Shown one piece after another: positions 1,338 through 4,316 of a DNA stretch of 11,461 bases. Source of the DNA: Candidatus Portnoybacteria bacterium CG10_big_fil_rev_8_21_14_0_10_36_7 (GTDB taxonomy: Bacteria > Patescibacteriota > Minisyncoccia > Portnoybacterales > PFDW01); the NCBI GenBank assembly GCA_002793835.1, contig PFDW01000073.1:1-11461 (forward strand). The letters run 5' to 3'. The position numbers were made by a program, and so were the translations under genes. The notes under the pieces are model-generated. The model saw only the letters and a list, made by a program, of their open reading frames with translations, was not told the DNA's origin and ran no database searches. Every line of letters begins with the position of its first letter. Position 1 is the stretch's first letter.

Positions 1338-1366
1338 ATCTTAACAGATAAAATCGTCTCTGCCAA
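1338..1366 (-). promoter_or_regulatory. Sigma-70-type promoter of recJ, near-leaderless
   Basis: On the minus strand there is TTGGCA (1366-1361, 5 of 6 to consensus), a 17-base spacer, then TAAGAT (1343-1338) preceded by TG one base upstream, an extended -10. The usual start point 6-8 bases further on would fall at about 1330-1332, leaving only 2-4 bases before the recJ ATG at 1328. The -35 box begins immediately after the terminator hairpin. Start point and activity are inferred. Confidence 0.65.
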
Positions 1367-1400
1367 CCAAAAGCCCCCGCTACTTAGCGGGGGTTTTTGG
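1367..1400 (-). terminator. Intrinsic terminator after the repeat surface protein gene
   Basis: A 14-base-pair inverted repeat (arms 1367-1380 and 1387-1400, one G-U pair) has a GC-rich core, CCCCCGC against GCGGGGG, and a 6-base loop. The A/T flanks within the arms give a T run on either strand (4 on minus, 5 on plus). It begins one base after the surface protein stop codon at 1401-1403 and ends where the recJ -35 box begins. It could act in both directions, although no plus-strand gene is seen. Confidence 0.85.
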
Positions 1401-4259
1401 TTATCTAATTTGTTGATTAATCCCTACTGACGCTTCAGACATTTCCTGCCTCCAGCGCAATATATAGTAAATCAAGAGAGCCAAGATTACAATAAGCAGT
1501 AACATTAGAATCATTGTGATGCCGTATCGATTATCATAAATTCTTTCACCTATAGACTTAGATGAGGGTCGCAACGCCCCAATAGCAGATGCAGCTGAAT
1601 TTAAGGTTTGGCTAGCTCCTAAAGTGATAGTTGTTCTTTCTGAGCAACCATTGCTATTACAAGCTCTGATTGACCAAGTACGCGACTTATCGGCCTTGGC
1701 AACACTAGCTGAAAAGATACCTTCAGGCAACACATTGTACAAACTCCAATCGCCAATTTGACCATCGAAATATGCTAATTCATATGTTGATTCGTCTTTT
1801 GCATTATCATTCCAGATCAAAGTAACGTTTTCTGGAGAACAGTCCGCATATTGACAACTCAGCCCACTTGGAGCAGTTGGCACACCCTTAACTGCTGGGA
1901 CAGTGCTTACAGCGGTTGAGGCAAAATATGCCCAGACTTTTCTGTTCGAAGAATCAACCGACACGATACATTTATTATTGCTGATGCTATCACAGTTAGA
2001 CCAATATGAGAATTTACTTCCAGCTAAAGGTGACGCAGTTAAAATTACATTAGTTCCATAAGCATAAACCTGGGAACAATCTGATCCACAGCTAATGCCT
2101 GAAATATTACTAGAAATTTGCCCACTGCCAGATTTAATAACAGATAATTTATATGTAGATACATTGGTATTACCAGTTGAACCATCACCATCACTAAATA
2201 CAGCACTGACTTTTTTATCAGTATTTAACGTTGTGTAACAACTTAAACCACTAACAGAATCACAACCTGTCCAATACGTAAAATATGAATTGCTAGTTGG
2301 TATGGCAGTTAAAACAACGTGTGTGTTAATTCTATATTGCTCGAAACAATCCGAACCACAATCAACACCAATTGGACTTGAGATAACGCGCCCCGAACCA
2401 GATCGATTAATGGATAGATTGGCTCGAGATGAACTGTTAACTGTATTAACAAAGTTAGCAGCAATAGATTTATTTTTATTTATTGTAAGATAGCATGACG
2501 ATTCAGAGCCAATACAATCACCGCTCCAATATGAGAAATAATTTCCATAAGAAGGTGACACCTTAATTGTTACATAAGTATTATTGGCAAATGAACCAGT
2601 ACAGGTTGCTTTCCCAGAATCACAAGTAAGTCCAGATGGTATAGAATAGACTGTGCCATTGCCAGAAGTATAAACTGTCACGTTATATGTATTACTAGAA
2701 TTACCAGAAAAATAAGCATATGCAGTCTTATTACTATTCATATAAAAAGTACAGGTATTACCCGAAACACTGTCACAGCCACTCCAATATGAAAAATAAT
2801 TTCCATATTGAGAACTGGCGGTTAAAGTTACATAACTTCCAGAGCTAAACGATGCAGAACAATTTGAACTACAACTTGAAATTCCAGATGGGCTTGAATA
2901 AACATACCCAGAGCCAAAAACATTGGTATTCAATGTATAGTTATTTGAACTTTGATAATCATTGCTGAAATAAGCGCTCACTGATTGATTGCTATTCATA
3001 GAAACATAACAAGTGTTGCCAGAAACACTGTCACAGCCACTCCAATATGAAAAATAACTGTTAGAATAAGGGCTGGCTACTAAAGCAACATATGAACCAT
3101 TTGAATATGTTTCATAACAATCTGAACCACAATTAATTCCACCAGGATTCGAATATACATAACCGTTTCCACTTCTATAGACACTCAATTGATAGTTATT
3201 ATAATTTTGATTATTACTATAGTTAAAAGTAGCACTTACTGATTTATTGTTTCCCAAATAAATTGTGCATGAATTACCACTAATTGAATCACAACCAGCC
3301 CAGCCCGCAAAGTAATAGTTACTGTCTGGGCTAGCATTTAATATAATTGTTGTGCCTTCACTAAAAATTCCTGAACAACTCCCAGAATTTGTACCGCAAG
3401 AAATCCCCGAAGGATTTGAATAAATAGAACCATTTCCAGACTTAGAAACATTTAAAGAATAATTGTTAGATGATTGGTTTTGATACGTGAAACTAGCCCC
3501 TACGGATTTATTAGAGCTCATTGATATCGAACAATTATTCGTCCCACTGCAAGCACCAGACCAACCAGAAAATGTATAACCACTACTAGGTAAAGCCGTT
3601 AAAACCACACTAGTATTTGCTACAAATGATTCCGAACAATCTGCGCCACACGAAATACCCGCTGGGCTTGAGTTAACAACGCCACCGGTATTTACAGAAA
3701 CAGTTAAATTATAATTAGAAACTTGGGTAGTTGCATTCGCAATATTAAAAGAATAGTTTTCTCTTTCAACCCAATCAGCGTTTGGCCAATCTTTATCTGT
3801 ACAATTTGAATCATCAAAATATTTCTGTCTACGCTTAACTTTTACCGTATGATCGCCAGAACCTAAATTTAAGTTTGGGATCCAACCTCGGATATTAGAA
3901 TCTGTATCCAATTTTTTGTGACACGAGCTGGTAAAAGGTCCGTACCAAGTTCCATCAATATTTATTCTAATCTGGTGCTCAAAAGAATCTACATTATCCG
4001 TGCTGGATAAGTTTCCACCACGAGACATAGTCGAATTAAAATATAATGATCGTACTTTTGAAACTCCAGATGGCAATTGATACTGATTTTTACTAACTTT
4101 CGTTAAATAACTTCCACCGCCATCTGTACTAGCTGATAAATCGTAATTCCACGACCAAGCCTTTGCTTGCCCAGTATACACGAATAAAGCTAAAAACACG
4201 AAAGAGGCTATTAGCCCCCCTTGTATGATATTGCTTGATTTTAAGCTTATTTTGGCCAT
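1401..4259 (-). CDS. Large exported, membrane-anchored Cys-rich repeat protein (InlB B-repeat-like, FN3-like domain)
   Basis: The product has 952 residues from the ATG at 4259. The N-terminus has a signal peptide: K3/K7, a hydrophobic stretch at about 14-28, then AKA (32-34), a fitting signal peptidase I site. Residues 35-180 form a Trp/Tyr-rich region I do not recognise. Seven tandem repeats of 84-89 residues follow (183-779), resembling divergent InlB B-repeats: a GxGxVxSxPxGIxC start, a VxLxAxP strand, a YWSGC turn and a final SVxAxF. Each repeat has four Cys, pointing to two disulfides. A fibronectin type III-like domain (about 794-880; WNDNAKDESTYEL, SIRACNSNGC) comes next. It is followed by a transmembrane helix (912-934) and a short tail beginning RWRQ, so the bulk should lie outside the cell. 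No LPXTG motif is present. A longer reading frame from TTG at 4316 is rejected because it runs through the promoter. An adhesin or surface-layer-like role is plausible but unproven; binding partner unknown. Confidence 0.88.
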   Translation of the reverse strand: MAKISLKSSNIIQGGLIASFVFLALFVYTGQAKAWSWNYDLSASTDGGGSYLTKVSKNQYQLPSGVSKVRSLYFNSTMSRGGNLSSTDNVDSFEHQIRINIDGTWYGPFTSSCHKKLDTDSNIRGWIPNLNLGSGDHTVKVKRRQKYFDDSNCTDKDWPNADWVERENYSFNIANATTQVSNYNLTVSVNTGGVVNSSPAGISCGADCSESFVANTSVVLTALPSSGYTFSGWSGACSGTNNCSISMSSNKSVGASFTYQNQSSNNYSLNVSKSGNGSIYSNPSGISCGTNSGSCSGIFSEGTTIILNASPDSNYYFAGWAGCDSISGNSCTIYLGNNKSVSATFNYSNNQNYNNYQLSVYRSGNGYVYSNPGGINCGSDCYETYSNGSYVALVASPYSNSYFSYWSGCDSVSGNTCYVSMNSNQSVSAYFSNDYQSSNNYTLNTNVFGSGYVYSSPSGISSCSSNCSASFSSGSYVTLTASSQYGNYFSYWSGCDSVSGNTCTFYMNSNKTAYAYFSGNSSNTYNVTVYTSGNGTVYSIPSGLTCDSGKATCTGSFANNTYVTIKVSPSYGNYFSYWSGDCIGSESSCYLTINKNKSIAANFVNTVNSSSRANLSINRSGSGRVISSPIGVDCGSDCFEQYRINTHVVLTAIPTSNSYFTYWTGCDSVSGLSCYTTLNTDKKVSAVFSDGDGSTGNTNVSTYKLSVIKSGSGQISSNISGISCGSDCSQVYAYGTNVILTASPLAGSKFSYWSNCDSISNNKCIVSVDSSNRKVWAYFASTAVSTVPAVKGVPTAPSGLSCQYADCSPENVTLIWNDNAKDESTYELAYFDGQIGDWSLYNVLPEGIFSASVAKADKSRTWSIRACNSNGCSERTTITLGASQTLNSAASAIGALRPSSKSIGERIYDNRYGITMILMLLLIVILALLIYYILRWRQEMSEASVGINQQIR
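1923..3713 (-). repeat. Seven tandem ~86-codon protein repeats
   Basis: The repeats begin at residues 183, 267, 356, 441, 525, 614 and 703 of the 952-residue product, spaced 84, 89, 85, 84, 89 and 89 residues, and the last ends near 779. Each has two Cys near its start (CGxDC or a slightly longer spacing in repeats 2 and 5) and two around the YWSGC turn, 28 in all. Linkers are rich in Ser and Asn. Repeats 3 and 4 are closest at the DNA level. Repeats 1, 5 and 6 are more diverged, so the array is mostly old with some later exchange. Confidence 0.9.
2764..3057 (-). repeat. Identical 36-base direct repeats within the surface protein gene
   Basis: Bases 2764-2799 and 3022-3057 are identical, 258 bases (86 codons) apart and in frame. 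They encode the YFSYWSGCDSVSG turn of repeats 4 and 3. A shorter, imperfect relative of the block lies near 2523-2550 in repeat 5. Perfect identity including third codon positions suggests recent duplication or gene conversion between neighbouring repeats, and offers a substrate for repeat-number change. Confidence 0.85.
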
Positions 4260-4265
4260 GTTTTT

Positions 4266-4287
4266 ATGGTTAATTTTTAATAACCAT
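4266..4287 (-). promoter_or_regulatory. Palindrome at the transcription start of the surface protein gene (candidate operator)
   Basis: ATGGTTA (4287-4281) and TAACCAT (4272-4266) form a perfect 7-base inverted repeat with an 8-base AT-only centre. It begins directly after the -10 box and covers the expected start point near 4281. Because the start point would fall inside the left arm, the site looks more like a DNA-binding operator than an RNA hairpin. No regulator is encoded nearby, so this is inference from position and symmetry. Confidence 0.45.
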
Positions 4288-4316
4288 ATTATATGCTTAT
4301 GGCCTAATTTTGTCAA
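4288..4316 (-). promoter_or_regulatory. Perfect consensus sigma-70 promoter for the surface protein gene
   Basis: TTGACA (4316-4311), a spacer of exactly 17 bases and TATAAT (4293-4288) match the housekeeping consensus at all twelve positions. The -35 box shares bases with the pgk stop codon TGA (4315-4313). The leader to the ATG at 4259 would be about 22 bases, with no Shine-Dalgarno sequence (AAAAAC directly before the ATG). This gives strong expression independent of the glycolytic genes upstream. Confidence 0.88.

Follow-up and report, generated by a model that had tools for sequence, protein, structure and literature searches.

A predicted surface protein with seven four-cysteine PF18998 repeats and an orphan head domain in a Portnoybacteria genome

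Tandem small beta domains on bacterial surfaces serve as stalks. The subject of this report is a 952-residue protein that may carry such a stalk, encoded in a bin (assembled genome) of Candidatus Portnoybacteria; its gene lies on an 11,461-nucleotide stretch of DNA, contig PFDW01000073.1 of assembly GCA_002793835.1 (our contig C66), which we call the window. The closest described systems are of two kinds. One is the InlB B repeat of Listeria, described in PMC8900821 as a beta-grasp-like domain, with the related family Flg_new (PF09479), whose proteins PMC9723798 proposes to be adhesin-like in gut archaea. The other comprises Gram-positive adhesin and pilin stalks, such as the Mobiluncus adhesin 5u5o, UafA, PitA, and SdrD; by its title, the 5u5o structure contains intramolecular disulfide, isopeptide, and ester cross-links. 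How bacteria of the candidate phyla radiation (CPR) recognize and hold their hosts is said in PMC12206443 to be largely unknown; its authors test type IV pili and propose that further adhesins act at close range.

The repeats of the Portnoybacteria protein are distantly related to the first kind. Of the 15 rows in the alignment of repeat pairs, 8 also reach PF09479 at E values of 0.1 or better (best, 1.1e-6). The structural model has domains of adhesins and pilins as its top matches; InlB, absent from the 50 matches listed, may still rank below them. The Gram-positive stalks share the arrangement of tandem small beta domains. They differ in that the protein here would be anchored by a membrane helix, with no LPXTG motif seen by eye, in that any cross-link here would be a disulfide only, and in that sequence searches of PDB chains found no kinship with the repeats and no convincing solved relative. 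In the open-access library searched, we found no paper linking the InlB B repeat with Patescibacteria or the CPR and none naming Flg_new_2, the short name of PF18998.

Architecture and repeat type

The gene is an open frame of 952 codons on the minus strand, from an ATG at 4259 to a stop at 1401. Its parts are as follows.

1401..4259, minus strand: whole gene, 952-residue membrane-anchored surface protein (predicted; open frame)
4158..4259, minus strand: putative N-terminal signal, residues 1-34, ending QAKA (hydropathy scan, by eye)
3714..4157, minus strand: head, residues 35-182 (about 148 residues), no family match (Pfam, PDB, class and phylum searches; model)
3489..3713, minus strand: repeat 1, PF18998, Cys 204/208/237/243 (Pfam and alignment, as for repeats 2 to 7)
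3225..3461, minus strand: repeat 2, PF18998, Cys 288/295/323/331
2967..3194, minus strand: repeat 3, PF18998, Cys 377/381/409/417
2709..2939, minus strand: repeat 4, PF18998, Cys 463/467/495/503
2451..2687, minus strand: repeat 5, PF18998, Cys 546/553/582/589
2196..2423, minus strand: repeat 6, PF18998, Cys 634/638/666/674
1923..2153, minus strand: repeat 7, PF18998, Cys 724/728/756/764
1620..1904, minus strand: FN3-like region, residues 786-880, Cys 802/807/867/872 (matched by two class relatives)
1455..1535, minus strand: putative membrane helix, about residues 909-935, followed by RWR and a brief tail (hydropathy; model helix 908-951)

A profile search places the repeats in PF18998, the "divergent InlB B-repeat" family, far above its curated cut-off: seven stretches match (E value, 1.1e-53; 179.6 bits against a cut-off of 23.6). 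The repeats are 75 to 79 residues long and are joined by linkers of 7 to 14 residues; each has exactly four cysteines, at fixed columns and in register in all seven when aligned. Two stretches of the protein, residues 8-32 and 907-938, are hydrophobic enough to be of membrane type. The signal was called from hydropathy and visual inspection, and an exported protein with outward topology, ending in a C-terminal membrane helix, is what hydropathy would suggest. The gene product appears to consist of a signal, a head, a seven-repeat stalk, an FN3-like region, and a membrane helix. A sequence-only reading of this DNA had described these coordinates (with no strand given), the signal peptide, the seven InlB B-like repeats with their 28 cysteines, and the C-terminal anchor; on all of these it agrees with what we find, and it was right in nearly all its parts.

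Its surprise at the repeat is another matter. It had called the surface protein unusual, but the repeat with its four cysteines is an already known, common type, and so is the stalk. PF18998 matches occur in 58 of 383 genomes of the same class (window genome counted), compared to 1 of 14 control genomes. Fifty-two of the 58 could be typed; for three no sequence was fetched (G056, G215, and G296) and three had no repeat passing the filters (G144, G266, and G314). At least one cysteine pair is present in 38 typed genomes, 33 of which (again counting that of the window) have a repeat with all four, and 14 are without cysteines, although typing covered some places per genome, so that a "no-Cys" genome may hold a further copy with cysteines. 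The pattern GIxCGxxC ... GWxG.C ... C recurs in class relatives, viral contigs, and at least one plasmid (Gemmatirosa, L185). Four plasmid records in all, from Gemmatirosa, Methylobacter, Halorussus, and Granulicella, have PF18998-type matches via the repeat part. Nine of 12 viral contigs have a four-cysteine repeat, two have fewer cysteines, and one has none; two of the contigs (L100 and L101) carry an identical repeat. What sets this protein apart is the presence of seven four-cysteine copies in a single chain together with a private head; otherwise it is a normal member of the family.

Two further occurrences may be mentioned. One viral contig (L093, from IMG/VR) has seven such repeats in a row at 1934-3682, six with four cysteines and one with two by profile. 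The bin itself has a second PF18998 gene (L015, on contig C13 of genome G000, 1646-4294), with a four-cysteine repeat, partly masked.

The FN3-like domain of the sequence-only reading is weaker. At E values up to 10, Pfam fn3 (PF00041) matched neither the 92-residue region nor the last 169 residues of the protein, so that the label rests on two class relatives that match the region (E values, 1.3e-5 and 5.7e-5). These relatives themselves score 24.2 and 14.5 bits against Pfam fn3, for which the cut-off is 25. The motif ACNxxGC is common to the region and both relatives, and the structural model gives the region no resolved fold.

Cysteine pairing

The protein has 34 cysteines: 28 in the repeats, 2 in the head (113 and 153), and 4 in the FN3-like region. 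They make up 3.57% of its residues, compared to 0.24 to 1.78% in the other nine proteins of the window, and their number is even in every domain. The sequence-only reading had proposed that, within each repeat, the first and second cysteines (C1-C2) and the third and fourth (C3-C4) form disulfides. If so, cysteines should be kept or lost by pairs, and mostly they are. We scored 104 unique repeats from 44 loci, each 60 residues or longer, drawn from 146 matches outside this gene (42 duplicate or short matches were dropped), counting a cysteine within a few columns of a conserved position as present. All four cysteines are present in 59 repeats and none in 30; C1 and C2 alone are kept in 6, C3 and C4 alone in 3, and 6 show a single loss. 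In no repeat has one cysteine been lost from each pair. Disagreement within a pair is seen in 4 repeats for C1 and C2 and in 2 for C3 and C4, compared to 11 to 13 for the cross pairs. These counts ignore kinship, and a single protein (L097) supplies at least three of the six repeats keeping C1 and C2; among the six single losses, at least three (L086, L093, and L098) retain four cysteines overall and may be shifts. The pattern fits disulfides and adds new support for them: each repeat of this protein is probably stapled by two, C1-C2 and C3-C4. For a repeat form whose sequence searches gave no convincing solved relative, the paired-loss count is a cheap sequence test of such pairing.

The bin also has VKOR, split into two pieces that lie on separate contigs, and Thioredoxin_4 matches at four places, which is in keeping with the proposed pairing. 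Across genomes the association is a hint and not significant. VKOR is matched in 141 of the 383 genomes of the class and in 3 of the 14 control genomes; matches are present in 18 of 38 genomes with cysteine-type repeats compared to 2 of 14 with no-Cys repeats (Fisher P = 0.052), and comparison with all other class genomes gives P = 0.16. One could argue from this, from the single losses in 6 of 104 repeats, and from the fact that the case for disulfides is built from sequence, that the cysteines bind metal or are a mere sequence habit. We consider that very unlikely, given that most losses are pairwise, that the N terminus is of the export type, and that every domain has an even cysteine count.

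The head domain and possible roles

The head is predicted to be all-beta, with low to medium confidence. As the sequence-only reading had it, this segment of about 150 residues has no recognized family; contrary to the same reading, it is not aromatic rich, since Tyr, Trp, and Phe make up 12.2% of the head, 13.1% of the repeats, and 12.8% of a glycosyltransferase-like protein in the same window. Searches of Pfam gave no family, the 23 genomes of the order (its own included) and the viral contigs gave no convincing relative, and PDB sequences gave one match with an E value of 0.14. Among 383 genomes of the class and 379 of the phylum, the head found itself and, besides that, matches at chance level. 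With E values up to 1, the class search listed 15 other genomes (best, 0.0055), and tblastn of the head on those 15 loci aligned 11 at E values up to 10 (best, 0.001); these matches are short, broken by stops, or in proteins unrelated by eye, and we regard them as chance. A phylum match in G579 (8.7e-4) was likewise taken as chance, with five stops within the matched stretch. The head would seem, then, to be a lineage-restricted orphan.

We think it fairly probable that this is a secreted single-pass protein in which a disulfide-stapled stalk of seven repeats presents a lineage-restricted binding head. The protein would be exported and held by its single C-terminal membrane helix; the ectodomain stalk would consist of seven all-beta PF18998 domains, each with its two disulfides, presumably forming a rod that holds the beta head away from the cell; and the head would most likely bind an outside target, whether a host cell, another cell, or a polymer. 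Three considerations lead us to a binding domain: a private head sits on a common type of stalk, beta domains of this sort have a stalk role, and Flg_new proteins have been proposed to be adhesin-like. Host-cell binding is the most interesting option, although attachment, like binding by the head itself, is something we infer.

Two other roles can be imagined. The protein might be a structural part of the envelope, or of a surface-layer-like coat: the stalk would cross the outer layer or reinforce it, the head would bind to the envelope of its own cell, and the protein would take no part in attachment. We hold this to be unlikely, since at an E value of 0.001 neither the whole protein nor the head is matched in the 22 other genomes of the order, which is not what a conserved envelope part would show. 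In the same vein, the genomes with PF18998 matches include none of the others in the order (20 of the 22 are listed as searched without a match). The whole protein is matched in 8 of 93 relatives, window genome counted; it has no relative in the searched genome contigs and none in phages.

Alternatively, the protein might bind polymers or carbohydrates for nutrient capture. The repeats match a Granulicella record annotated as a glycoside hydrolase domain protein, and PMC10076258 mentions Prevotella proteins that combine pectin esterase domains with divergent InlB B repeats; however, no carbohydrate-binding Pfam family and no enzyme domain were found in the protein itself, and we judge this role to be distinctly unlikely. 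For host recognition or holding in the CPR, the protein offers a candidate that can be put to the test: a private head carried by a known type of stalk.

Expression and the pgk-recJ junction

Three further features flank the gene.

4288..4316, minus strand: promoter-like TTGACA-17-TATAAT, 12/12 consensus, overlapping the pgk stop codon (consensus scan)
4265..4288, no strand assigned: palindrome TATGGTTA-N8-TAACCATA, perfect 8-base arms, starting at the end of the -10 box, by the expected start site (scan)
1365..1402, no strand assigned: G+C-rich hairpin between the gene stop and recJ, terminator-like on both strands

The first would be a strong promoter, as the sequence-only reading proposed. 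A 12/12 site with a spacer of 16 to 18 arose in 6 of 200 shuffles of the window, and this perfect site is one of 9 in the bin, compared to 0 in the reversed control; a scan with a looser consensus found no excess above shuffles. When the palindrome is sought with 7-base arms and up to one mismatch, the bin has it at a single place, but so does the reversed control, and its rarity alone is no proof of function. As RNA, it folds with a z score of -2.94, equaled in 1 of 200 shuffles. It could be a DNA operator for a regulator, which seems likelier than the RNA reading, as the left arm of the palindrome probably falls on or before the start site.

Every large frame of the window shares the strand of this gene. 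Downstream is recJ, cut by the window edge; upstream are pgk, tpi, galT, the glycosyltransferase-like gene, map, adk, secY, and rplO. The products of rplO, recJ, and map score above NCBIfam cut-offs, the glycosyltransferase-like protein reaches scores below the cut-off only, and pgk is supported by relatives; tpi, galT, adk, and secY are what we take these genes to be, by eye. The gene resembles its neighbors in G+C content (0.366; 0.256 at third codon positions). We inspected the downstream end of pgk in 18 genomes of the order, 16 of which were readable (in one, pgk is at a contig edge, and in one it was not located); four genomes of the order were outside this survey, and recJ was recognized by eye from its N-terminal sequence. 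A recJ-like start follows pgk on the same strand in all 16 and follows it directly in 15, so that the present gene occupies a junction that is usually closed. In one relative (L036, G003), a 149-residue frame stands between pgk and recJ; the junction may take up genes repeatedly.

One can envision a bolder version, in which the orphan head serves a CPR bacterium in recognizing its host. It would be a receptor-binding domain specific to the lineage, carried on a disulfide-stapled stalk and encoded as a self-contained unit in the conserved pgk-recJ junction, where a strong promoter of its own and a palindrome resembling an operator could allow production to be switched on host contact or separation. 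Taken as a whole, this is speculative and unlikely. Three points keep their interest: the orphan head, an apparently self-contained expression unit at a junction that is usually closed, and the sequence-based case for two disulfides in an uncharacterized form of the repeat.

The bin has 713,067 bases on 81 contigs (87.1% complete, 6.62% contaminated), a small genome, as the sequence-only reading had supposed, of a bacterium that probably depends on a host. The kinship labels used here are those given by the genome tool. A 43-row pgk tree has a split (support, 100/98) with the window, its class relatives, and a single record each of Nealsonbacteria and Buchananbacteria on one side and a single Saccharibacteria record plus ten from other phyla on the other; this split marks the genome as a member of the CPR (Patescibacteria). 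Within its half, the forks nearest the window are weak (89/93 and 87/70), and the order does not form one clade. A second pgk is present in the bin (G000 contig C25, 1270-2301), aligning in two pieces at 44% and 52% identity; two organisms may be mixed in this bin.
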